DNA of 64,000 nt. Source: Streptomyces ambofaciens ATCC 23877 (GTDB taxonomy: Bacteria > Actinomycetota > Actinomycetes > Streptomycetales > Streptomycetaceae). Location: contig NZ_CP012382.1 in NCBI RefSeq assembly GCF_001267885.1, positions 4,823,001-4,887,000 of the forward strand. The letters are read 5' to 3'. Below are positions 1-16,303 of the stretch, piece after piece (within the stretch, counting starts at the first letter, position 1; each line of letters begins with the position of its first letter). The notes below the pieces were generated by a model. It did not search any database, was not told the origin of the DNA, and saw only the letters and a list, made by a program, of their open reading frames with translations. Made by a program: the position numbers and the translations under genes.

Positions 1-957
1 CTCATCCTCTTCGACGCCTTGGAGCACCTGCACCGGGTCCGTGCCCAGGCCGACCGTCTGGTGGGCGGCATCATGGAACTGGCGCTCGCCATGCGCCTCG
101 GGACCCGCAGCATCCGCTTCAAGGTCTTCATCCGCCCCGACATGTACGACGGCGCACTGCTCCACTTCCCGGACGCCTCCAAGCTGACCTCCAACGCGGC
201 GGCCCTGACGTGGTCCCGCGCCAACCTCTACGGCCTGCTCTTCCACACCCTGGGCAACCACGACAGCGAGCTGGCCGCCCGTTTCCGGCAGCTCACGGGC
301 GGCTGGCAGAGCGAGGCGTCCGGCAGGCGCCACGTCCCGCCACCGCTGCTCAGCGGCGACGAGCAGTTCCAGTCGGAGCAGTTCACGCAGCTCGCCGGTC
401 CCTACATGGGCTCGAACTTCCGCAAGGGCCACACCTTCACCTGGCTGCCCAACCACCTGATGGACGGCGTGGAGCAGGTCAGCCCGCGCAGCTTCCTCAG
501 CGCCTTGCAGAAGGCGCTGTCGGAGACCCGAGGCCAGTACGCCGGGCACGAGTACGCGCTGCACCACGAGGGCATCCGGCGTGGGGTCCAGAAGGCGTCG
601 GAGACCCGGGTGACGGAGGTCAGCGAGGACATGCCGTGGGTGGTGTCGGCCATCAGACCGCTGGCCGGGCACCAGGTACCCATCGAGCAGGCGAAGGTGG
701 AGGCCCTCTGGCAGGAGTTCCACCTCGCGGACGAGTTGCGCAAGCTGGCCGAACGCTACGAGCCCCAGAATGACGACGACGAGATCAAGGTTCGGACCGG
801 CCCCCGCTACCCGGAGGACCTGCAACTGCTGATCGAGGAACTGATCGCACTGGGCGTGATGCGCCGCCGCCGCGACGGCCGCATCGACCTGCCGGACGTC
901 TACCGCATCGCCTTCGGCGTGGGCCGCAAGGGCGGCGTGCCCCGGGTCGCCGGCTGA
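1..957 (+). CDS. P-loop NTPase, C-terminal part (5' end outside window)
   Basis: The reading frame is open from the first base, so the gene begins upstream of the window; the visible part is 318 residues. The first residues (LILFDAL) look like a Walker B strand, hydrophobic residues then Asp. The following stretch (FKVFIRPDMYDG, then FPDASKL and LYGLLFHTLGN) resembles the sensor region of STAND/KAP-like or MinD-related NTPases seen in actinobacterial accessory regions. A small basic, winged-helix-like tail follows (residues about 270-315). The Walker A region is not visible. The product could be a regulatory or defence ATPase; I do not recognise a named gene, and it does not look like PglY. 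It faces the Uma2 gene across 59 bases. Confidence 0.55.
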   Translation, partial: LILFDALEHLHRVRAQADRLVGGIMELALAMRLGTRSIRFKVFIRPDMYDGALLHFPDASKLTSNAAALTWSRANLYGLLFHTLGNHDSELAARFRQLTGGWQSEASGRRHVPPPLLSGDEQFQSEQFTQLAGPYMGSNFRKGHTFTWLPNHLMDGVEQVSPRSFLSALQKALSETRGQYAGHEYALHHEGIRRGVQKASETRVTEVSEDMPWVVSAIRPLAGHQVPIEQAKVEALWQEFHLADELRKLAERYEPQNDDDEIKVRTGPRYPEDLQLLIEELIALGVMRRRRDGRIDLPDVYRIAFGVGRKGGVPRVAG

Positions 958-1016: not shown

Positions 1017-1580
1017 CTACTGCCGCGAGAGGTCAGCCGGATCGATCGCGAGCGGGAACGGGGCGTCCAGGTGGCTGGTCGTACCCGCGAGTGCCGTGGT
1101 TCGCTCTACGTAGCGACCGTCTTGCAGAACGTAGACGACAAGCATGGGGGCGGGGTCGAACTCCAGGCGCCAGAAGTGCGGGACGGCGGCCTCGGCGTAC
1201 AGCATGGGCTTGACCTTGCGGTCCATGGTGCTGTTGCCGGGGGAGACGAGTTCGACGACGAGCTGGACCGCGTCCATGTCGACGGAGACGGGGTCGTCGG
1301 CGGTCGCGCCGATGTCGGCCACGACCAGATCGGGCACGACCAGTCCGGACGGCAGCACTACGTTGACGCCCTCCAGGATCTCCACCGGCGCGCCGACGGC
1401 TCGGGCGGCCGCGTCCAGGGCGACGTGGAGGCGGAACGAGGCCCGCTGGTGGCGGACACCGGGGGCGGGGGACATGACGAGGGATTCCCCCAGCAGCTCG
1501 TAGCGGGTGTTGCGGTCTTCGGGCAGGGCCAGGACGTCGGCGACGGTCCAGGGCCCGGTGTGGTCGATGGCAACGCTCAT
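1017..1580 (-). CDS. Uma2 family (DUF820) endonuclease-like protein
   Basis: A 187-residue protein of the Uma2 family, which has a PD-(D/E)XK nuclease fold. Family landmarks are visible: a YELLGES start of the core, VPDLVVAD (the PD motif), then VVELVSPGN and a downstream DRKVKPMLYAEAAVPHFW segment. Streptomyces carry many copies, mostly of unknown function. The frame runs open further upstream, but I place the start at 1580 because a clear GAGGAGGTG ribosome binding site precedes that ATG. The gene lies downstream of, and in the same direction as, the HTH gene, with 158 bases between them. Confidence 0.8.
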   Translation of the reverse strand: MSVAIDHTGPWTVADVLALPEDRNTRYELLGESLVMSPAPGVRHQRASFRLHVALDAAARAVGAPVEILEGVNVVLPSGLVVPDLVVADIGATADDPVSVDMDAVQLVVELVSPGNSTMDRKVKPMLYAEAAVPHFWRLEFDPAPMLVVYVLQDGRYVERTTALAGTTSHLDAPFPLAIDPADLSRQ

Positions 1581-1738
1581 TCCCTTTTCACCTCCTCGTC
1601 CGACCGGCAGTCTCGGTGTGACCTCGGCAAGCGATACACGGCCAGCATACGGGCGCTCCCACCTGCTGGCACGAGGTCCCGTCGCCAGGATCGACACCTC
1701 GAACCGGTACGGGGCGGTTCACGGTCTCCGGGGGAAGC

Positions 1739-4058: not shown

Positions 4059-7000
4059 TCACTCGCTCTTCTTCCGCCCCCGCGTCTTCTTCTCGGGACG
4101 CCAGTTGGTCAGATCGGACTCGGACAGACCCCGTTCCGTGCGGCCGTTGTCCAGGGCGGCCTGGAACTCCTCGGCGGGGTTGCCGTCCCACTCCTCGTCG
4201 TGGCCGCCGTACCACTGGTGAACCCAGGGCATCACTTCCCGCAGCCCGGCGAGCAGCGGCACGAACCGCGGGTCTTCCTTCTCCCAGCCCCCGCTCTCGA
4301 CGCGGTTGCGGATGAGTCCGACGAGGGCGTCGGCCTGGTCGCGGTGGTTCCAGCCGGCCCAGCCGAGGAGGAGGGAGGTGTCGGAGTCGGTGGAGGCGCC
4401 GGGATAGGAGATGAACCGCTCCTTCGGCACGTCGAGCTTGCCGCGATTCGACCAGTAGGAGTGCTTGAGGAAGTCCGCACCGGTGTACTTGGGCGGCACC
4501 TTGATATCGAGCCGCTTTCCGGTCCGATCCTCCTCCCGCTGCTGCTCCCAGACCTGCTCCCACTGGGCCCGCTTGCGCAGCCCGCTGTCCTTGTAGCGAA
4601 GGGCTGCGATGTACGGCACGTGCTCGGCCTCGATGACGGCGGCGAAAACGGTGGCAAGGGAAGCGTCCCGCTTACCGAGGTGATCAGCGGCGTACAGAGC
4701 GGCGACGGCCTGCACGTCCGCGTCATGCCGGAGGGCATCAGCGAGCTGGTTCACGGTAAGCGGACGCGGCACGGTGTACCCGTCCTGCTCCTCGAACCAC
4801 AACTCCTCCCGCTCGGCGGCGTCCAGCAGCCAACCTCGCAGAGCAGCGGCCTCGCGCTTCTCCCACGGCTCGATGGACCAACGGCGCTTGTACTCGGGCC
4901 GCTCGATGAGCCGGATGTCCTTGTTGGCCTCGATGAGATCGAGGCGTGCCTGGACCACCTTGCGATAGGCCTCGGGCCAGTGAGCGGGAATTTGTGTGAT
5001 TGGAACAGACCCGTGTCGCTCGAACCAGACGGTGTCGGCGCCGCTCTGGGCAAGCGCGATTTCGAAAGACCGCTCCCCAAGGGTGATTTCGGGTACCTCG
5101 GTGGTTGTGGTTCGCGCTACTTCTTCGGGGGTGAGTAGCCCATATGCGCCGTACACGGTCCAATCTAGCTCTTCCTGCAGCGCGATCATCTGCCGGCGGA
5201 GGCGCTCCTGCGCGCGACGCGCCTCGTCGAGGTATGCGCGGGCCGGGACCTTGTCATGGCTGAGGGCGGAAGGTTCGTGCTTGGCTGACTCCTGGGCGAA
5301 GGCGTCAAGATCGCGACTCTGGGTGAAGGGAAGCTGCTGAGGAAGCGGAAACTCCTGCAACTTGGTGCCGGTGTACTCGTAGAACCTCTCCCACTCGTCG
5401 TGCATGAAGCCGCCGGTTCCTGACTGACTTCCCTTGTCGTGAGACACTTGCTTTAGCCAGAAACAGCCAGCTGACGAATTCAGAGCGGCCAACAACTTTA
5501 GATGCTGCTCCCCGCTGGCCCCTTTCGGCAACTTGATGACCGGTGAGTGCCTGTTAAACACGTGAGGGCCGTGGTCCAGCACAAAATGATTATGGGTGGC
5601 TACGCACGCGAACGAAAGTGTTTGACCGCCGTAGCGCCCACGGAAGAACATCGAGTATTCATACCAAGTCAGCCCTCGCTCGCTCTGCGTTTTTCCGAAC
5701 GCAACGCGCTCTCGCAAAATTACGCGGTTCGGCCACAGGAGTCGATCGATTTCGGGGCCACTCTTTGGTGCCAGATTGGCGTTTCGGTCATACGGCCACA
5801 CCGCCTGTTCGGCATGGCTGATTACCCAGTCGCGAGTGGTCTCACCGTCGGCCACAGGGGCTGTCAGTTCCTTGGGAACGCCAGCGCGCCTTAGTGGCCC
5901 CCCTCCCAGCAGGTAGGCGTCGTCCGATCGTGTGACTGCGCCAAAACCAATGGAATCAGTTGCATCGACGAGACGCGAGGCAGCCGCTTCCTCCATACGC
6001 CTCTGCACGACTTCTGCGCCACCACCTGCGAGGGACCAAGGGTGACCATTGAAGCGACCTTGGCTAGCGTCCTCAACGGACACCCAGTCCGACTCGCTCC
6101 CCGGCACTCCCGCCTGTGTCGTAATCGCCCGCCACACTAGCCCATTCTCCGGGTCCTCCGGCTGGCTCGGCTCACCACGCACTCCCAACACGGCCCGCAC
6201 GATCTCATGACGCCGAGCCACCTGATTCCGCCCCGCCAAAATAACAGTCGGCGTCCCATGCCCCGGAATATAAGCCCCGGATGTATCAATCACATGCGTA
6301 AGCTGAACCCTCGGAAAGAACTCCTCAATCAGCCTCTTCCCAAACTCCCGCTTCATAAAGGAGTTGGCAGTGATCTGCCCGGTGAACCCCCCATCCCGAT
6401 GGTCACCCCCCGCCCGAACCGCCAACTCGAAGATCCGCTGAGCGAACGGCACCGACAGCGCATACTGCCGATAACACGCGTCGTACGCGGCCTTGTAATT
6501 CTTGTTCTCGTTGGCGTCCTTGACGGTGATGTACGGCGGATTCCCCACCACCACGTGATACGACCCCCGCCCGAGAAGATCCACTCCCCGCGCGTACTCC
6601 TCCACATCCTCCGTGCGGTAGTAGAACGGCTCGTTCTCCGCGAACAGCGTGTCCAGCGACTCCGTCACCGTCTCCGCCCCCCGCCCGTGCAGCAACGAGT
6701 CCGCCACCGCAACGCGAATCGGAAGCCCAGGGGCCGCCCCCAACTCCCGCACACCCCCCGCCTTCAACGCGGCCACCAGCAACCGGAACCGCGCAATGGC
6801 CACGGCGAACGGGTTCTTGTCAGACCCGTGCACGGACTCCAGCGCCCGCCGCACCAGCGCCCACGGCTCAGTCCCGGGCTCCACCTCCCGCCACTTCCCC
6901 AGCAGTCGCTCGAAGAGCCCCAGCAGGAAGTGCCCGGACCCGCACGCGGGGTCGATGCACCGCAGCCCCCGGACGACCTCCTCACCACCGGGACCGTCGT

Positions 7001-7766
7001 CCCACAGCTCCCCGTCCCAGGCCACCGGCCGGTGCTTCCACGCCGGCGTGAGTCCGAACTCCTCCACCGCCGGTTCCAGCGTCAGGTCGAGGATGAACTC
7101 CTCGACGAACACCGGCGTCTGGAGCAGTGCGTACGTCTTCCGGGCATGCTCGGACAGGTCCTGATACAGGTCACCGAGGAACCGCGTGTTCAGCTCGGGG
7201 TCGGTGAAGTCGTGGACGATCTCGCCGTCCGCGCCCCGCTCCCGCCAGAACGCCAGCAGCGCGGACGCGGCCTCGTACGACGGCGTCACCTCGTACAGCG
7301 GATTGTGGCCACGGTCGAAGAGCCCGGCAGCCGTCGGATGTGAGGAACCCAGCGCGTCGAAGGCGTCGAGGAGCCAGTCGCGGTCGTTCTTCTCCGGGTG
7401 GGCACGGAAGTACGCGTCGTGCCGGTCCACGGCCTCCGCCAGCCGCTCACCCGGCCCGGAGAGCCAGGCGTCCGGGATCAGCCCGTTGTCCTCGCTGAAG
7501 CGGACGAAGACACACGCCAGCACCCACGCGGCGGCGATCTGGACGACCCGGTCGTCCCGCCAGGTCTCGTACATGGCCGCCGTACGTTCCGCGAGGACCG
7601 CCCGCTCGTACTCGGCGCGCAGCGCGGTACGGAACTCCGGCTCGTCGTCGGTCCGCGCCCGCAGGTCGTCCTCCAGCAGGCGGGCCCGCACCTGGAGATC
7701 CTTCAGCAGCCGTACGCGGTCCAGCGAGGCCCCCGACCCCACCCCCGGCGTCCCCTCAGCAGTCAC
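4059..7766 (-). CDS. pglX: BREX type 2 adenine-specific DNA methyltransferase PglX
   Basis: 1,235 residues, about the expected length for PglX. The N6-adenine methyltransferase motifs are intact: DPACGSG at about 272-278 (SAM binding) and GNPPY at about 408-412 (catalytic). In Pgl/BREX-2 systems PglX methylates host DNA at a non-palindromic site and is needed for phage resistance. The part between about residues 470 and 775 is coded by clearly less GC-rich DNA than the rest (see findings) and should include the target-recognition part. The basic tail is KKTRGRKK. The gene is divergent from the protease-toxin gene and lies on the same strand as pglW, 4 kb downstream of it. The ATG at 7766 is the first plausible start. 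Confidence 0.93.
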   Translation of the reverse strand: MTAEGTPGVGSGASLDRVRLLKDLQVRARLLEDDLRARTDDEPEFRTALRAEYERAVLAERTAAMYETWRDDRVVQIAAAWVLACVFVRFSEDNGLIPDAWLSGPGERLAEAVDRHDAYFRAHPEKNDRDWLLDAFDALGSSHPTAAGLFDRGHNPLYEVTPSYEAASALLAFWRERGADGEIVHDFTDPELNTRFLGDLYQDLSEHARKTYALLQTPVFVEEFILDLTLEPAVEEFGLTPAWKHRPVAWDGELWDDGPGGEEVVRGLRCIDPACGSGHFLLGLFERLLGKWREVEPGTEPWALVRRALESVHGSDKNPFAVAIARFRLLVAALKAGGVRELGAAPGLPIRVAVADSLLHGRGAETVTESLDTLFAENEPFYYRTEDVEEYARGVDLLGRGSYHVVVGNPPYITVKDANENKNYKAAYDACYRQYALSVPFAQRIFELAVRAGGDHRDGGFTGQITANSFMKREFGKRLIEEFFPRVQLTHVIDTSGAYIPGHGTPTVILAGRNQVARRHEIVRAVLGVRGEPSQPEDPENGLVWRAITTQAGVPGSESDWVSVEDASQGRFNGHPWSLAGGGAEVVQRRMEEAAASRLVDATDSIGFGAVTRSDDAYLLGGGPLRRAGVPKELTAPVADGETTRDWVISHAEQAVWPYDRNANLAPKSGPEIDRLLWPNRVILRERVAFGKTQSERGLTWYEYSMFFRGRYGGQTLSFACVATHNHFVLDHGPHVFNRHSPVIKLPKGASGEQHLKLLAALNSSAGCFWLKQVSHDKGSQSGTGGFMHDEWERFYEYTGTKLQEFPLPQQLPFTQSRDLDAFAQESAKHEPSALSHDKVPARAYLDEARRAQERLRRQMIALQEELDWTVYGAYGLLTPEEVARTTTTEVPEITLGERSFEIALAQSGADTVWFERHGSVPITQIPAHWPEAYRKVVQARLDLIEANKDIRLIERPEYKRRWSIEPWEKREAAALRGWLLDAAEREELWFEEQDGYTVPRPLTVNQLADALRHDADVQAVAALYAADHLGKRDASLATVFAAVIEAEHVPYIAALRYKDSGLRKRAQWEQVWEQQREEDRTGKRLDIKVPPKYTGADFLKHSYWSNRGKLDVPKERFISYPGASTDSDTSLLLGWAGWNHRDQADALVGLIRNRVESGGWEKEDPRFVPLLAGLREVMPWVHQWYGGHDEEWDGNPAEEFQAALDNGRTERGLSESDLTNWRPEKKTRGRKKSE

Positions 7767-7991: not shown

Positions 7992-10118
7992 GTGACGTTG
8001 ATGATGGCGGTGGCGGCTGTATGGGGCGTGTTACAGCTGTACGCCGTTTCGTGGCCGACCCGGTCGGTGCGGCTGTCGACCGTGCTGCTCGCTCTCGCGG
8101 TGGGGGCGTACGCGTGTGGAGTGACCACAGCGCTGGTGCAGCTGGCATACACCCGTCTCTACGCGGACCAGTCGGGGCAGTCACTGATCACGGTGGTGAA
8201 CACCACCAGCTACACGGTGGCGCCGTGGGTGGAGGAACTGATCAAGGTGACCCCGCTGCTGCTGGCGGGGTGCAGCCTCCGGATTCGCCGACAATGGGGG
8301 TTGACCGACTTCACCGTCCTGGGTGGGGCGCTGGGGGCCGGATTCGGGCTGCTGGAGGCGGTCCTCCGGTTCGGCCTGGACGCGGACCGGGCGATGGTGC
8401 GCGGCGAGGGCTGGATCATCCCCGACAGCCTGTCGCCACCCTACGTTCCGGGCCTTGGCCAGGTGCTCACGTCCTGGCTGCCCGCGCCGTTCAGCCAACT
8501 GGCCACGGCCGGTCCTCCGGCCACGGAGACCTTCGAGCACTTGGTGATGTCGACCCTGGCCGGCTTCGGGATCGGCGTGCTGTGGCGTGCACGCGGGTGG
8601 GCACGCCTGCTGTCGGTGGTCCCCGTCGCCGTGGCCGCCTTCCACCACACGGTGAACAACTACGCCGCGCGGGAACCGGGCAGCCAGGCCAAACAATGGC
8701 TCGACGACCTGGACGCGAAGGCATGGGCGGCACCACTGGTGTGCCTGGCCATCGCCCTGGTCGTCGACCTGCGCCGACTCCACCGGGGCAGGACGGCGGT
8801 GCCCGGCGTACTGCTCGCCTCCGAAAGCGCCGATGGGGACAGCGTGGCGGCCCTGCTGCGCTACACGGCCTGGCGACCGCCCTGGAGCCTGCTGATCGGG
8901 CTGCGCTACGTCAGGCTCCGACGCTCCCTGCTGTACGCCGCCACGTCGGCACCCGCCGACGACACCGAAGAACTCCGACGTGTGGTCGCCGTGATCACCG
9001 CTCGGATGGACGCGTCCGACAACCCGCGAGCCTGGCGAGAGGTCAACCTCAGGACGTGGTGGGAGGCAGCCCGAAGATCCCGTCGTCCCCGGGACCGGTG
9101 GCTCCTGCTCATCCCGTGCGTACTCGTGGTGCCCTCACTGCTGTACCTGGGCGTCGGCACGTTCAAGGCCACGGCCGGCCTCCAGGAGTTCTTCACCACC
9201 GGCCCGGGACCGAAGATCCTGATGGGCTTCGGCATCGCCGCCCTCGCCTGGATCGCCTACCAGCTCACCGTCCTGCTCCGCACATGGCGGGCCGTGACGG
9301 CGCAACCCGTGGCGGAACTGCTGGCCGCGCACCGCTTCCGCATCGGAACCGCACTGGGAGCGGCGGCCCTGGGCACCTTCCTGCTGTGGCACGGGTTCGG
9401 CGAGGCGGGGCCCGAAGGCAGGTCGATCCGGACGCTGCACCTGCTCGACGCGCTGGACACCTTCCTGGTCCATCTCGGCTTCGCACTCCTCCTGCTCTCC
9501 CTGCTGGCACTCTTTCCGCCCGGCGGGCTTGCGCTCGCGGGAGGTGGAGTGGCCGGCACCCTCACTGCCGAGGCCGCCCTCACCGCCGGTGTCCTGGGCT
9601 CGGCCGGTCTCGTCCTCATGGGTCTGGGGGCCACGAACGGCTCCGGCGGTGACTACAACGCGTGGCCCAGGAGCAAACGGAAGGGGCGCACGAAGCCCGA
9701 GCACCGTGCGGACGTCCGCGGCGACGAGGGCAAGAGCCTCGGAGGCAGGAGCAAGGCCCATACCATCGACAAACACGTCGACAAGACCATCGACGGCATG
9801 CGCAAGCGTCTGCGGAATGATGCCGACCTCGCCGCGGACTCACGCTACGTGGACGTCGACGCGGCACAGAAATTCACCGACAAGACTCTCACCCTCGCAA
9901 GCAATCAGCGGAAGATATCGGAGTGGCTGGCCAAGGGCGCCAAAGGGCCACTACGGCTGGAAGCGAAGTTCGACGAGTACACGGGGCTGCATCTCACCCG
10001 CTACGACTTCACTCACGGGCAGCCCACGCAATGGGTGAAGGGAGTCCGGGTGATCCTCAAGGCCGACCCGTCGGCACCGTCCGGCTACCGCGTCCTCACC
10101 TCGTTCCCCCAGCCGTAA
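7992..10118 (+). CDS. PrsW-like intramembrane protease fused to RNase A-like CdiA-CT toxin
   Basis: 708 residues if the GTG at 7992 is used; a GGCGGGG stretch sits just upstream, while the open frame back to 7899 is less GC-rich and looks non-coding. The N-terminal part is a multi-span membrane domain with the three PrsW glutamic protease motifs: EELIK (81-85), FGLLE (118-122) and FHHTVNN (217-223, the HxxxD/N motif). A middle region adds further membrane segments (about 360-560). After a charged linker, residues about 590-708 match the bacterial CdiA-CT RNase A-like toxin domain: HTIDKHVDKT, a helical part, then a beta-rich end with KGVRVILKADP and GYRVLTSFP. The immunity gene follows 21 bases later. 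I infer that protease activity or membrane topology controls toxin release; nothing shows how. Confidence 0.8.
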   Translation: MTLMMAVAAVWGVLQLYAVSWPTRSVRLSTVLLALAVGAYACGVTTALVQLAYTRLYADQSGQSLITVVNTTSYTVAPWVEELIKVTPLLLAGCSLRIRRQWGLTDFTVLGGALGAGFGLLEAVLRFGLDADRAMVRGEGWIIPDSLSPPYVPGLGQVLTSWLPAPFSQLATAGPPATETFEHLVMSTLAGFGIGVLWRARGWARLLSVVPVAVAAFHHTVNNYAAREPGSQAKQWLDDLDAKAWAAPLVCLAIALVVDLRRLHRGRTAVPGVLLASESADGDSVAALLRYTAWRPPWSLLIGLRYVRLRRSLLYAATSAPADDTEELRRVVAVITARMDASDNPRAWREVNLRTWWEAARRSRRPRDRWLLLIPCVLVVPSLLYLGVGTFKATAGLQEFFTTGPGPKILMGFGIAALAWIAYQLTVLLRTWRAVTAQPVAELLAAHRFRIGTALGAAALGTFLLWHGFGEAGPEGRSIRTLHLLDALDTFLVHLGFALLLLSLLALFPPGGLALAGGGVAGTLTAEAALTAGVLGSAGLVLMGLGATNGSGGDYNAWPRSKRKGRTKPEHRADVRGDEGKSLGGRSKAHTIDKHVDKTIDGMRKRLRNDADLAADSRYVDVDAAQKFTDKTLTLASNQRKISEWLAKGAKGPLRLEAKFDEYTGLHLTRYDFTHGQPTQWVKGVRVILKADPSAPSGYRVLTSFPQP

Positions 10119-10139
10119 CACGCATCCTTGGAGCAGTTG

Positions 10140-10796
10140 ATGAGTCAGGCACTTCCGCCAGGGCAACGATTCCACGAACTCAGCGACCTGCTGGCGGCCT
10201 ACGCCCACGTGGATTTCACGTTCTCCGACACCGCAGAAGCTCCGGGACCCGCCCTGTCCGCCTACCTCAGGATGGCCGCACGCGACCCCGGGCGCGCCGC
10301 GACGGCGGTTCGGCAGATCGACGACCTGCTCTCCGTCGGTCTGTTCTCCGAGGAGATCGCGGACGAGGTGGAACACCTCCCGCACATCCGTCCACCGATG
10401 GGTACGAGCGTTGAGGACTGTCTTCGCGTGGTGAAGGCCCACCTTCACCGCTTCCTGCGCGACCCCTCACACACCCCGCAGGCGAACCCGCAGAGCTCCT
10501 GGGAATGGAACGAGCGCTTCCCGTCCTTGGGTCAGCTGCTCGGCGCCTACTTCCACCGGGACTTCTCCTACATCTACGAGTCCCGCGAAGAGGCCCTCGA
10601 CGAGTACGTCGGCGAAGCCGATCCGCAGGACCGCGTACAGGCGGCCCAGGAGATCGGTGAGCTTCTGGAAATGGTGTCGTCGGACCAGGAACTCCGGACC
10701 GCGACCACGGCATTGGGGCTCGACCTCCTGCCGCCGCAAGGGATGTCCCTGCAAGGATGGCTCGAGTCGATTCGTCGCAGGATCACCGCAGCGTAG
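10140..10796 (+). CDS. tandem CdiI-family immunity protein
   Basis: 218 residues from the ATG at 10140, preceded by TTGGAGCAG; a TTG at 10128 is an alternative. Two homologous copies of the CdiI-type immunity fold are visible: residues about 6-100 (FHELSDLLAAYAHVDF) and about 122-215 (FPSLGQLLGAYFHRDF, with an EEALDEYV helix and the closing SLQGWLESI). The protein is acidic, as immunity proteins to basic RNases usually are. It follows the toxin gene closely, so it is presumably co-transcribed and neutralises the C-terminal RNase domain. The duplication may mean it protects against two toxin variants or binds a toxin dimer; that is inference. Confidence 0.8.
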   Translation: MSQALPPGQRFHELSDLLAAYAHVDFTFSDTAEAPGPALSAYLRMAARDPGRAATAVRQIDDLLSVGLFSEEIADEVEHLPHIRPPMGTSVEDCLRVVKAHLHRFLRDPSHTPQANPQSSWEWNERFPSLGQLLGAYFHRDFSYIYESREEALDEYVGEADPQDRVQAAQEIGELLEMVSSDQELRTATTALGLDLLPPQGMSLQGWLESIRRRITAA

Positions 10797-10914: not shown

Positions 10915-11604
10915 TCAGTCGTTCCACGACTCGGGAGGCGGGCCGAAAGCGCGCCGACCGGCCCTCACCGCCAGGGTGGCGAGGGTGGCGTTGGCGCCGC
11001 CACCGATTACGGCGCCGATGCCGAACGGCGCCACTCGACCGAGGACGATGATCCCCTGCTTGGTTCCGTACTTGGTGATGAAGTGCGGGCCCAGCACCTT
11101 GTTGATCTGACGCAACGTCTCGACAGGCACCTTGGCGACGATCTGACGTCCCCAGTGCTTGCCCGTGGTCCCGGCGACCTTGGTGATGGTGGAGTTGCCG
11201 CTCCCACCGAGCATGATCCCCATCACGATCGTCCGGCGGCGTTCGACCTCGGCGAGGGGGACTCCGTGGACTTCGGCGACGGAGAGCGCGAAGAGGACGC
11301 TCAGTTCGAGAGAGGAGAGAGTCTCACCCGCAGACAGTGCCAGGGCGACTCCCGTGCCGACGCCCGGCGCGGCCGCGGCCCCTCCGACCGCGGCCCCCGA
11401 CCCGGTCAGCGCGCTGACGTACATGCGCTCCAAGGTGCGGATCACGTCCGCGGGCGTCGCCTCATGGTTCCGCTGGCGGGCCCGGGTGATGTTCCTGCGC
11501 ACCAACGGACTCTGGAGGTCGATCGCCTTGTCCAGGAGGTCGAGGACTCGCTGCCCGCGCGGGGTTTCGTCCGGAACCTGCCCATCGGGGGCATCTGCTG
11601 CCAT
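10915..11604 (-). CDS. EcsC family protein
   Basis: 229 residues; the ATG at 11604 has an AAGGAG site seven bases upstream. The glycine-rich hydrophobic stretches (GSGAAVGGAAAAPGVGTGVA and a C-terminal FGIGAVIGGGANATLA) and the KHWGRQIVAKVPVETLRQIN core fit the EcsC protein family, a poorly characterised membrane-associated family. It lies 115 bases downstream of pglW on the same strand and so may be co-transcribed with it. It faces the immunity gene convergently. Its role in the cassette is unknown. Confidence 0.65.
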   Translation of the reverse strand: MAADAPDGQVPDETPRGQRVLDLLDKAIDLQSPLVRRNITRARQRNHEATPADVIRTLERMYVSALTGSGAAVGGAAAAPGVGTGVALALSAGETLSSLELSVLFALSVAEVHGVPLAEVERRRTIVMGIMLGGSGNSTITKVAGTTGKHWGRQIVAKVPVETLRQINKVLGPHFITKYGTKQGIIVLGRVAPFGIGAVIGGGANATLATLAVRAGRRAFGPPPESWND

Positions 11605-11719
11605 GTCCGATCTCCTTACGATCTTCACATCGCAACTCAGGTTATATAGACCGGACTTGGGCCACCAGCCCTTCCGTGAAACGGGTGTGCCTTCCGTGTG
11701 GGGCCCAAAGGGCGGTGCT

Positions 11720-14700
11720 TCACGAGGGTGAACCGGCCACCCGCAGACTCTTCAGGAACAACCCGTCCAACACCTCCCACTCCGTCACCCGGTCCACCAC
11801 CTCCACGGTCCGCCCGTCCAGCGTCGGCGTGGCCCGCGGGTCCTCCGCCGGCACCAGCAGCCACAGCCCGTGCGGCGTGTCGGCGGGGCGGCGCGCCGCC
11901 TGCTGGAGGGTGGCCATCAGTTCCCTGCCGCCCGCCTCCCAGTAGCGGGCGATCAGCCCCGCGTCATGGGCCAGCAGGACCGTCCGCGGACCGGAGCGCT
12001 CCGCCAGGTCGAGCAGCCGCCCGCGCAGGCGCTCCGACGCCAACCGGGTGTACGAGGAGAGCGCAGCGCCCAGCGTGCCGGTGGCCGTGTACTTGGTGTC
12101 CGCCTTCAGCAGGGCCTGCCAGCGCACCGACTGCTCCTCGGCCAGTTCCTTGAGTGCGCCCAGGAAGAGGCCGTTCAACGACACGGCGGTTGCCCCGTAC
12201 CGCTCGGCCAGGGACGCGGCGATGCCCGGCAGCTCCGCGCCCTTCAGCGTCAGCGCGAGGAACCCCCCTCGGCGGCGGGCGTCGGTGAGGCGTGCCGCCA
12301 GCACCTCCCGCGGGTCCCGGCCCTCGGCGATGCTGCCCTGAGCGGCGGCGTACAGGGAACTGGTGCTGGTCAGGACTGATGAGGACAGCACCGGCCGACT
12401 GCCGGCGCCGTCCCGCGGCTGCGGTACGAACCGGCGCCGGTCCTGGTCGTAGAGGAGGGGGAACCCCGCCTCGGCCAAGGCCTCGCCCAGCTCCACGTAC
12501 GTCGTCTCGGACAGCACGGCCAGACCGGGAAACCTCGCCCGGACACGGGACAGGAGATCCTCGGTGCCGATCCCGGTGTCGGGCCGCACACCCGCTGGAG
12601 CCTGTGAGACCCGCAGGGCACGCGCCAGGGTGAGCGAGAGCGGGAACAGCTCCAGCCGCGGGGAGACGGCGACGCCGCCCGCCATCGACGCGGCCAGTTC
12701 CACCAGCCGTGTGTCGGCGAGGGGGGACATCCCCTCCGGGGCAGGTACGCCCCGCAACTCCCTCAGCACCGTGGCACGTCCGGGCAGGGGGTCACGGCCG
12801 GCCAGGTCGACGGCGCACTCGCCCAGGGCAGCGGCGTAGTCCGCGAGTTCCGCCGGGGTCGGGTCGTCGGCGCCCGGCTGGTCCTCCAGCGCGATCACCA
12901 CGCGGCCGGCCCGCCGTTGGACGGCCAAGCGGGCAGGTGCCTCCCCGTCGGTCCCCGGTTGTTCCTCGTCGCGTCTGCGGATCTCCGTCTCGACCGCGGC
13001 CCGCACCACGGCCAGGGCCCGTGCCTGGGTCGCGTCCGCGTCGTCGGCACCCGCGCCGTGCCGGGCACGCAGCTCGGATGCCAGCTCCTCAGCCGTCGAC
13101 ACGCGGTCCCGGTCGGCCAGGACCGCGACGAGTTCGTCGCGGACCCTGCCGAGCCAGGGCAGCTCCGCCCACTGCTCGACCGCCACCTGGAAGTTCTGCG
13201 AGACGGTCGGCTGGCTGATGCCCAGTGACTGGGCGATCGAACTCTGTGCGGGCCACGGCTCCAGCGACTCACCGTCCTCCAGCACCGCCGGAAGCTGCAA
13301 GGCCGCCCGGACGACGTCGGGACGGGGCCGGGTACGGCGCTTCCCCGGAGGCGGGGTCAGCCGGGCAGCCAGTGTGTCGACGGACTCCAGCACCTCTTCC
13401 GGAGCGTCTGCGGCAACGGCCGACGGTTTGGCGGCCGACGCACGCCGGCGGTGGGCCTGCGTCCACTGCCGATGCCGGCGGTTCAGCTCCTTGCGGATCG
13501 CGTTGCCCGCGCCGCGTGCCCGCGAGATGTGGTGCGGCGGAATGTTCAGCAACTGCTCCACCGTGTGCGCCTTGAGGCTCTCGGCGACCGAAACGGCACG
13601 GGGAGACAGCCCCGCGGCGGCGAGCGGAGTGTCGAGCGAGGCCGCTTCGGCCGCCTGCTCCCGCGCGTCCTCCAGGTCGTCCGCGCTCATGCCGATCGTC
13701 GCCGGAGTGGTGGCCGGGCGAGCCGCGTCCGCGGTCCGGAAAACCTGCCGCCACGCCTCCTGCAACTGCCGCAGGCTGTCGTAGCGCTGCTCGGCGTCAC
13801 GGTGCAGTGCGCGCTCGAAGAACCGCCTCAGGCCCTCACTGAGCGCGGCGGGGAACAACTCCGCGGACACATGCAGCGCCGCGTCCGGAGCCATGCGCGG
13901 GTCCCCCTGGCCGTCTCCCCAGACCGGCCTCTCGCCTGCGGCCATCTCGTGGAGCGTGACGGCGGCGGCATACCACTCGGCGTGGTCGTCGTAGCGGGAA
14001 CGGCCGGCACTGCCGAGGAACGGGTCCAGGTAGCCGCGCGTCCCCGCGTGCAGATCCTGGTCGGGAGCGTCGGCCAGCGAGAAGTCGAACAGCATCAGCT
14101 GCCACGAACCGTCGCTGCGCTTGAACAGGCCGAGATTGTCGGGCTTGATGTCCCGATGCCGCACCCCGCGGGCGGCGAGCGCGTCCAAGGCGTCGAACAA
14201 GTCGTTGCCGAAGCGCTCCAACTGGTCGTAACCCAAGGGACCTTGGTCGCGCAGCCGTGATCCCAGGCTCACCGGATCACGATCGTCCACCCCCCGGTAC
14301 CCGCCTGCGTACTCGAGCTCCAGAACCGTGTGGCCCGCCAGTTCCTGTGGTTCGGCGAGCAGTTTCACGATGCGCCCGCCACCCACCTCCTTGAGGGCCT
14401 TGGCCTCCGCGAGCAGCCGAGCGTCCTTCTCCTGGTCCAGAGCGACCTTGAAGACCCGCAGGGAGTTCTCCGCCGGAGAACCCTCCGCCCCCTCATCAGC
14501 CGTGCCGCGCACCAGCAGGGCGCGGGCCGTCGCACCCGTACCGAGCACGCGCACCACCGACCAGGCGCGGTTCAGCCGCTGTCCGGGCTGGACCGTGAGG
14601 GGATCCGCCTCCGGCCCACCGGACACCTGCGGAGCCGCCGCGTCCACCTCGGCGGCGGCAAGGAGTTCGAGGAACTCGTCGACGGAGGCCAGACGGTCCT

Positions 14701-16144
14701 GCACGTCCGCCGCGGTGGCCCGGAACACGAGCGTGTCCAGGGCCGCAGAGACGGAGTCGGACACGGCGTAGGGACGCAGCCCCTTGTCGCTCTGCAGCCG
14801 TTCCAGCAACGCGCTGCGACGGTCCGCGGGCGGACGCCCCGTGAGCAGGAGGTACGTGAGAGCGCCGAGACCAAAGACGTCGAGGTCCACGGGATCGGCG
14901 AACTCCTGGTCCGTCTCCGGAGCCAGATACGTCTGCGCCGTGTCCGCGATCAGACCACCGTCCAGAGGCGTGTCACCCAGCGAGCGGTGCAGGGTGGTCT
15001 CGAAGTCGCGGGCCGCAGTCTGCCAGTCTGCGACCCGCAGAAGGGGATCGGAACCGTCCTCCCGCGCCGATACGTACACCGACCGCGCCGACAGCGCCCG
15101 GTGGTAGAGGGACCGGTGATGGGCGTAACGCACCGCCTCGGCGAGCTGGCGGACCAGATCAAGACGGACCACGGGCGAGAGGAGACCGCCGTACGCGTCG
15201 AGATAGGCGTCGAGCCGCAGATCCGACTCCCGGTGCCGGAAGAGGATCGCAGGCCCGCCCTGGTGCTCGCGGATCTGCACCGCCTGCACGATCCCGCGGT
15301 GGTTGATCCCCTGGAGCACCTGGTACTCGCGGCGGGCGGCGCGGTCCACCTTCGCCCGCTGCTCCTCCGACGCCGCGGCGCCGGCCAGGTATATACGGAC
15401 ACGGCCGCTCTCCTGGACGAGCCCGTCGTCCCGTACCGCCAGCCGGTCCTCCCAGTCGGGGCCCGCGTCGAGGGAACGGGGAGCGAGCTTCCAGTCGTCG
15501 CCGAAGCGCAGATGCGCCGTGGAGTGGCTGATGCCTATCCGCTGCATCAACTGCTCCAGCCGCTGGCTGACCAGCGGGGTGACCCGCCAGTTCTCCCGCT
15601 CCGGAGGACGGCTCAGCAGGTCGTCCCAGATCTTCGGCAGGCCGCTCGCCCCGTCGTTGCGGCCATAGACGGAGCTGCGCTGGAACTCGTCCAGTTCGCT
15701 CGCGAGCCCCGGGTCGTGGAGGAAGACGGCAGGCTTGACGAACGGCACCTGCCGCGGGTCCATGCCGAGAGCCCTCGCCGCCCGCTCGAGCTGGCTCTTC
15801 AGCTCCTTGGCCTTGAGATCGGTGAGATGGAGCGGGTTGCGGATGGTGCGGACCCGGTCCCCGTGGAACTGCCAGGTGTCACCGTGATTCACTACCCGGC
15901 CGGGATGCCCCTTCAGCTCCAACAGGTACAGGCCGCCCGGTACGGCGATCAACACATCGCACTCGTTGATACGGCCGGACGGCCCCGTGAACTGGAATGT
16001 GGCCCAGGCCCGGAAGGGCTCTGTCCTCGGCATCAGCGCCCGAAGATGATCGAGCCCTTCCTGCTCCCAGCGGAAACCGGACTTTCGCGGCTGGAACCAG
16101 CGTTCCCGGGTGACGGGAGCTGTTGGCTTGGGAGCGGCTGGCAC
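11720..16144 (-). CDS. pglW: BREX type 2 Ser/Thr kinase PglW
   Basis: 1,474 residues from the GTG at 16144, chosen because GGAGG lies six bases upstream; the frame is open to 16237. An N-terminal NERD domain is visible (about 45-120, GRINECDVLIAV and LYLLELKGHPG). Two kinase-like domains follow. The first (about 235-490) has HRALSARSV in place of HRDxKxxN and DWQ in place of DFG, so it is probably dead. The second (about 520-800) has HRDIKPDN with Asp665 and DFS in place of DFG, and looks active. A helix-turn-helix-like segment (SIAQSLGISQPTVSQNF) lies in the C-terminal half. PglW is the kinase of Pgl/BREX-2 phage defence. pglX lies 4 kb downstream on the same strand. Confidence 0.92.
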   Translation of the reverse strand: MPAAPKPTAPVTRERWFQPRKSGFRWEQEGLDHLRALMPRTEPFRAWATFQFTGPSGRINECDVLIAVPGGLYLLELKGHPGRVVNHGDTWQFHGDRVRTIRNPLHLTDLKAKELKSQLERAARALGMDPRQVPFVKPAVFLHDPGLASELDEFQRSSVYGRNDGASGLPKIWDDLLSRPPERENWRVTPLVSQRLEQLMQRIGISHSTAHLRFGDDWKLAPRSLDAGPDWEDRLAVRDDGLVQESGRVRIYLAGAAASEEQRAKVDRAARREYQVLQGINHRGIVQAVQIREHQGGPAILFRHRESDLRLDAYLDAYGGLLSPVVRLDLVRQLAEAVRYAHHRSLYHRALSARSVYVSAREDGSDPLLRVADWQTAARDFETTLHRSLGDTPLDGGLIADTAQTYLAPETDQEFADPVDLDVFGLGALTYLLLTGRPPADRRSALLERLQSDKGLRPYAVSDSVSAALDTLVFRATAADVQDRLASVDEFLELLAAAEVDAAAPQVSGGPEADPLTVQPGQRLNRAWSVVRVLGTGATARALLVRGTADEGAEGSPAENSLRVFKVALDQEKDARLLAEAKALKEVGGGRIVKLLAEPQELAGHTVLELEYAGGYRGVDDRDPVSLGSRLRDQGPLGYDQLERFGNDLFDALDALAARGVRHRDIKPDNLGLFKRSDGSWQLMLFDFSLADAPDQDLHAGTRGYLDPFLGSAGRSRYDDHAEWYAAAVTLHEMAAGERPVWGDGQGDPRMAPDAALHVSAELFPAALSEGLRRFFERALHRDAEQRYDSLRQLQEAWRQVFRTADAARPATTPATIGMSADDLEDAREQAAEAASLDTPLAAAGLSPRAVSVAESLKAHTVEQLLNIPPHHISRARGAGNAIRKELNRRHRQWTQAHRRRASAAKPSAVAADAPEEVLESVDTLAARLTPPPGKRRTRPRPDVVRAALQLPAVLEDGESLEPWPAQSSIAQSLGISQPTVSQNFQVAVEQWAELPWLGRVRDELVAVLADRDRVSTAEELASELRARHGAGADDADATQARALAVVRAAVETEIRRRDEEQPGTDGEAPARLAVQRRAGRVVIALEDQPGADDPTPAELADYAAALGECAVDLAGRDPLPGRATVLRELRGVPAPEGMSPLADTRLVELAASMAGGVAVSPRLELFPLSLTLARALRVSQAPAGVRPDTGIGTEDLLSRVRARFPGLAVLSETTYVELGEALAEAGFPLLYDQDRRRFVPQPRDGAGSRPVLSSSVLTSTSSLYAAAQGSIAEGRDPREVLAARLTDARRRGGFLALTLKGAELPGIAASLAERYGATAVSLNGLFLGALKELAEEQSVRWQALLKADTKYTATGTLGAALSSYTRLASERLRGRLLDLAERSGPRTVLLAHDAGLIARYWEAGGRELMATLQQAARRPADTPHGLWLLVPAEDPRATPTLDGRTVEVVDRVTEWEVLDGLFLKSLRVAGSPS

Positions 16145-16303
16145 CCAGCACCTCCGGGACGGCTGCAGCGAATGAGGAGAGCTCTGCGACAACTGCCCGA
16201 ACCCTCTCAATGACAGGAGAGGAATCCTAGTCCGCACCTACGACAGCCGGTCCGGAGCCGGCTGCCCGGCCGACGATGAGGAGGGGGCGTCGCTCGTCCC
16301 CTC
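16145..16303. other. junction between accessory region and conserved block
   Basis: Short non-coding stretch between pglW and the SDR gene. Its right end holds a hairpin (16279-16305: AGGAGGGG paired with CCCCTCCT) that overlaps the SDR stop and probably terminates that gene. I see no tRNA, integrase or obvious attachment repeat here. Conserved core synteny begins to the right. Confidence 0.45.

Follow-up and report, generated by a model that had tools for sequence, protein, structure and literature searches.

Organization of the locus and of the encoded protein

The window, the whole stretch of 64,000 nucleotides of Streptomyces ambofaciens ATCC 23877 that was analyzed (contig NZ_CP012382.1, positions 4,823,001 to 4,887,000), contains a 708-codon gene and a small downstream gene enclosed by a BREX-2 locus. 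The features are as follows:

4059..7766, minus strand: pglX of the enclosing BREX-2 locus (PDLC02529); context, outside the toxin unit
7992..10118, plus strand: predicted PrsW-carrier / RNase A polymorphic toxin, 708 aa; start GTG at 7992 or ATG at 8001
7992..8807, plus strand: PrsW-type core, residues 1-272, seven long helices
8766..9629, plus strand: carrier middle region, residues 259-546, delimited by conservation profile, hydropathy, and loop charge
9630..9755, plus strand: linker, residues 547-588; conservation break and toxin exchange point
9756..10109, plus strand: RNase A-like toxin domain, residues 589-706
10140..10796, plus strand: immunity gene, tandem CdiI_2, 218 aa, 21 bases 3' of the toxin gene
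10915..11628, minus strand: EcsC-like gene (weak Pfam match), PADLOC candidate PDC-S29; cargo between pglX and pglW
11720..16237, minus strand: pglW of the enclosing BREX-2 locus (PDLC02512); context

A sequence-only reading had joined a PrsW protease and an RNase A-like CdiA-CT toxin in one frame, followed within 21 bases by a CdiI-type immunity gene. Both points were confirmed, the first by the conserved motif residues of the PrsW core (E81, E82, K85, E122, H183, H219, and N223), a match to PF18431, and the residues H595, R606, and T703 of the toxin domain, and the second by the tandem CdiI_2 gene. A frameshift or an assembly join of two genes was considered and rejected, because the coding phase runs unbroken through the frame and the same architecture recurs in many relatives. 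The profile searches that had been proposed gave a divided result: the C-terminal domain matched PF18431, the only Pfam family found in the window protein, but PF13367 (PrsW) missed this protein, yet matched 42 of 58 aligned members of the carrier family. A search for sigma-70-type promoters gave no match, and such a search is uninformative for Streptomyces.

The three toxin residues correspond to H175, R186, and T276 of the CdiA-CT of Yersinia kristensenii, whose catalytic residues were taken from excerpts of PMC9086364. They were present in 73/73 tails of the BLAST cluster and in 26/26 after thinning at 85% identity. The catalytic Tyr278 is replaced by F705 in the window; among RNase-type tails, this position is Phe in 54/73 and Tyr in 19/73. 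Conservation of H595, R606, and T703 supports the putative RNase step. In line with the structure check suggested earlier, Foldseek with the model of all 708 residues confidently returned the RNase domain, which was the only confident return.

For the core folded alone, Foldseek found no match at E 0.001, with APH-1B at the top of the list, and VIA-align of the core model also ranked APH-1 first, although helical bundles easily give middling Z scores; these rankings are therefore supportive only. A profile search of the core against PDB sequences found no relative, and Rce1/CPBP structures were absent among the matches listed in the core structure search.

Residues 1-590 used as query retrieved 263 proteins, and every organism name among the best 120 of the 263 was Streptomyces. 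Residues 1 to ~546 form a constant carrier, whereas the tails differ among relatives. In 66 non-redundant sequences, agreement with the most frequent residue, averaged by block, was 0.60-0.92 for residues 1-540, 0.52-0.55 at residues 541-580, and 0.37-0.42 past 580. The middle region consists of a positively charged cytoplasmic-type loop and then four to five further hydrophobic segments, where the conserved part ends. The loop charges (mean of 66 carriers) alternate according to the positive-inside rule through helix 11, which would put the N-terminus on the outer side of the membrane and bring the protease residues close to its outer face. The last hydrophobic segment, residues 509-546, is half glycine and alanine. 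The loop after helix 11 is almost uncharged and the RNase linker is strongly positive, so the topology of this last stretch is ambiguous: one more crossing would put the toxin outside, and a hairpin would put it inside. Taken alone, the charge of the RNase linker favors the inside. The first 25 residues past 509-546 are neutral or acidic in 10 of 12 type representatives and basic in the RNase A type and the RHS giant. Overall, a toxin on the outer side of the membrane is weakly favored.

Clustering of the neighbors of 39 carrier loci yielded no dedicated export partner. The commonest neighbor cluster, present in 17 of the 39, presumably belongs with the regulator sets common in Streptomyces and was therefore not taken as an export partner.

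Toxin cassettes on a constant carrier

We next tallied the tails of 169 sequences (120 database proteins, the window protein, and 48 ORFs from fetched loci, fragments included), a sample biased to close relatives. Each tail was taken as the part that follows the carrier match; 8 of the 169 were shorter than 50 residues, and the other 161 were clustered. The type letters B-L are our own labels. The RNase A type accounted for 73 tails and type B for 42, followed by C (REase-like, a label that reflects a weak match with E 0.21) with 7, D with 7, RHS giants with 6, F and G with 5 each, H with 3, I and J with 2 each, and K and L with 1 each. The rest comprised one broken-looking pair (2) and five singles that looked broken, masked, or decayed. 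In all, about 12 tail types occur on one carrier.

Among 58 aligned members, Pfam assigned PF18431 to 32 and PF18451 to 4. The CdiA_C type was named by Pfam in one member each of G and I (4/58 aligned members), and one RHS giant was matched by Pfam/NCBIfam. The tails of types B, C, D, F, H, J, K, and L had no above-cut-off match in Pfam or NCBIfam. Type B (P0041 and its cluster, 42 tails) with its 162-aa partner is the second commonest cassette on the carrier; the partner (L005 12120-12608) had no above-cut-off Pfam match. In six loci (L071-L076), the carrier is joined to RHS repeats in giants of ~1740 aa, which resemble an RHS-PrsW protein mentioned in passages of PMC3482391. L071 (G165:C1:8420001-8440000) also encodes a short carrier-toxin, adjacent to the RHS giant and divergently oriented from it. 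A Clostridiaceae locus (L017; 45% over 47 residues) was excluded from all counts.

A CdiI gene lies 3' of the RNase A toxin in RNase-type loci. For types B, F, G, H, and L, a same-strand ORF starts no more than 60 bases past the toxin end, and the same was found for K and two RHS giants when the GC filter was omitted, a recheck covering seven loci of types C, D, RHS giants, J, and K. The D locus examined had 686 bases of contig left past the toxin. Types C (one locus) and J (two loci) had no same-strand ORF of at least 70 aa starting within 120 bases of the toxin end, indicating that pairing is not universal. The downstream ORFs of the non-RNase types are candidate immunity genes, an ORF by itself being no proof of that function.

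Several loci retain traces of exchange. In S. anandii (L012), the RNase A toxin and CdiI adjoin the same downstream gene as the unit of S. naganishii (L015), where the order is toxin B, the 162-aa partner, and a leftover CdiI 73% identical to that of the window. L059 has the same order of toxin B, partner, and CdiI. L057 is the reverse case: its toxin is of the RNase A type and is accompanied by CdiI and by a shortened remnant of the B partner. Such an arrangement would be expected if the old toxin gave way to a new toxin-immunity cassette but its immunity gene stayed. A constant carrier, swapped tails, and leftover immunity genes together point to a polymorphic toxin.

The BREX-2 surroundings

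The location between pglX and pglW of a BREX-2 locus, as first read, was correct, and the set is complete: BrxHI, BrxD, PglZ, and BrxC/PglY upstream (L077), PDC-M28B/C, PglX, the toxin unit, PDC-S29, and PglW. PDC-M28B and PDC-M28C match a gene pair inside this locus (L077 18103-19485; window 19-957, plus strand), and the second PDC-M28 gene has relatives in the pglW-pglX interval of 10 of the 20 Streptomyces pglW loci that were fetched. A putative restriction endonuclease of the Uma2 family (PF05685; window 1017-1697, minus strand) is encoded between the PDC-M28 pair and pglX.

This placement had been taken to support a defense role, in which a tethered RNase silenced by CdiI would be freed by PrsW upon membrane disturbance by phage or damage and would act as a suicidal back-up of BREX-2. 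The completeness of the BREX-2 set and the presence of other defense candidates (PDC-M28B/C and PDC-S29) fit such a role, but the distribution of the carrier does not. The carrier was detected in 28 of 246 Streptomyces genomes (E 1e-20, fragments included, and some genomes holding fragments only) and PglW in 56 (E 1e-60; a few partial or weak, as in G057 and G143); these counts are lower bounds, as 5 candidates per genome were scored for the carrier and 2 for PglW. Both occurred in 8 genomes (8/28 against 48/218; Fisher p 0.47), which is chance level. Only in the window genome, among the 28, did an intact carrier adjoin an intact pglW. In the other seven co-occurring genomes, the two were on separate contigs in five, where draft contig borders can hide linkage, and 0.6 and 2.7 Mb apart in G031 and G193. 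Remnants below the search threshold were present in G195.

The survey of other Streptomyces recovered the same fusion of carrier and toxin in relatives, but the BREX neighbors were not conserved: relatives of pglX and pglW flank the carrier in 2 of 41 loci fetched from other genomes, a set that includes truncated loci, draws more than once on two genomes, and contains L051, in which that search showed no carrier. These two, L003 with full genes and L002 with remnants, hold the carriers nearest to that of the window (92-93% identical). They favor the defense role in that L003 shares the placement and L002 shows BREX remnants; conversely, the toxin frame in L002 stays open although pglX and pglW are remnants (395/1235 and 140/1505 residues aligned, respectively). 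The carrier was absent from 20/20 pglW loci of other genomes, a non-random set hand-picked from the 56 PglW genomes, six of them from genomes that carry the module elsewhere. In these 20 loci, pglX and pglW are separated by 41-103 bases in six, 409 bases in one, and 2.9-8.0 kb in thirteen. The interval is a variable cargo spot, a property that would also suit a defense function.

The chromosomal site was then compared by blastn. In L013, the clearest case of a site free of BREX genes, groEL (recognized by eye) is followed by a short segment in common, then by the toxin unit with its carrier split into two frames, an SDR gene, and MOSC and response-regulator-like genes. In L002, this site holds the remnants of pglX and pglW on either side of the open toxin frame. 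The right flank is the same in L078 and L079, where it borders pglW, and the interval between pglX and pglW contains other genes and no toxin. These arrangements indicate that the toxin unit and BREX use the same groEL-SDR hotspot independently. An unnamed protein pair (~400 and 520 aa) is recurring pglX-pglW cargo at this site (L003 12892-15574; L078 6143-8825), and two large ORFs of the hotspot, L002 12848-16018 (1056 aa) and L079 9363-12371 (1002 aa), share MNRWVGIVSLRET near their starts.

Presence of the toxin unit in BREX-2 loci is not conserved, and the toxin appears to owe its position next to an anti-phage system to chance. Since L003 shares the placement, the unit is possibly cargo of a defense island in the window lineage. 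Furthermore, exchange of toxins with leftover immunity genes would be typical of competition systems. The proposed defense role is therefore weakly supported and improbable, competition is more likely, and phage-triggered release of the toxin is conceivable but unsupported.

Proposed function and relation to known systems

We interpret the protein as a PrsW-led polymorphic toxin, most likely directed against other bacteria such as rival, closely related Streptomyces (probability roughly 0.68). In the proposed mechanism, the constant membrane carrier, made up of the PrsW core and a second membrane module, would anchor the exchangeable C-terminal RNase A-like toxin. Cleavage by the conserved PrsW active site probably falls within or close to the Gly/Ala-rich residues 509-546, and the toxin freed by this self-cleavage would enter target cells and degrade RNA in those that lack the doubled CdiI protein. 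A toxin lying outside and released by the protease would act on neighbors, and cytosolic CdiI would shield the producer and its kin. More tentatively, and with considerable doubt, the carrier may be a complete one-protein export and release machine, in which the PrsW core and the second membrane module would thread the toxin across the membrane of the producer and cleave it off at the glycine-rich final segment. If so, any cassette behind residue 546 could be sent without another secretion system. Both self-cleavage and export by the carrier are inferences.

Even less probable than the defense role is a selfish passenger resembling a toxin-antitoxin system, in which post-segregational killing would let the pair stabilize the part of the chromosome that carries it, with the protease as ancestral baggage. 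Other carriers have different neighbors at several different chromosomal sites, and broken carriers are common among the sequences compared, both of which agree with a passenger. However, the protease residues are at least 97% kept across carriers bearing different toxins, which baggage would not need, and neither the 72,556 plasmid records searched (E 1e-20) nor the 50,697 phage records (E 1e-10) contained a match. Finally, a signaling or stress protease with a regulatory, non-toxic RNase domain, suggested by the signaling role of PrsW in B. subtilis, is very unlikely given that the C-terminal domain has a CdiI immunity gene as its partner and gives way to unrelated domains in other carriers.

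As a PrsW-led polymorphic toxin, the carrier family offers a chromosomal test case that is convenient for laboratory work: the protease site is intact, the fold of the toxin is known, its activity lends itself to a simple RNA-cleavage assay, and it has a cognate immunity protein. In addition, there are natural pairs of loci that differ in the toxin cassette. These features make toxin release or export by an intramembrane protease directly testable. The window case also illustrates how location within a BREX locus can suggest the wrong function.

Auxiliary and back-up effectors in BREX neighborhoods are reported in parts of a 2026 survey (PMC12839542), the main text of which contains zero occurrences of PrsW or RNase A. 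The window toxin, physically inside a BREX type 2/Pgl locus, differs from such systems in not being a conserved component. APH-1 of gamma-secretase, at 11% identity, is not a self-contained toxin carrier. Compared with CdiB/CdiA contact-dependent inhibition, the window protein has no TPS or hemagglutinin repeats, PF18431 being its only match. One of its closest counterparts, the CdiA-CT/CdiI of Y. kristensenii (PDB 5e3e; Batot et al. 2017, as given in excerpts of PMC9086364), is borne by CdiA, whereas the window carrier is a polytopic PrsW-type protein; in addition, Tyr278 is Phe and CdiI is duplicated in the window.

A polytopic protease had been considered an unusual carrier, but PrsW-led polymorphic toxins, including RHS forms, were already described in 2012. 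In the passages available from Zhang et al. (PMC3482391), PrsW is predicted to be the processing peptidase and conduit of polymorphic toxins that come in short-linker and RHS versions, with an RHS example in a Streptomyces. Among the open-access papers searched, none was recognizable by title or abstract start as an experimental study of PrsW-linked polymorphic toxins. The window protein shares with the PrsW-dependent toxins, as those passages describe them, an N-terminal PrsW, a variable C-terminal toxin, and mainly Gram-positive hosts, and with polymorphic toxins generally an adjacent immunity gene. It differs in a second membrane module of ~280 residues between the PrsW core and the toxin, in an immunity gene that is a doubled CdiI_2, and in its RNase A domain, which those passages do not name among PrsW toxins. 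The window protein therefore belongs to a known kind, the PrsW polymorphic toxins, and is distinguished by its RNase A cassette, its doubled immunity, and clear cases of cassette exchange.
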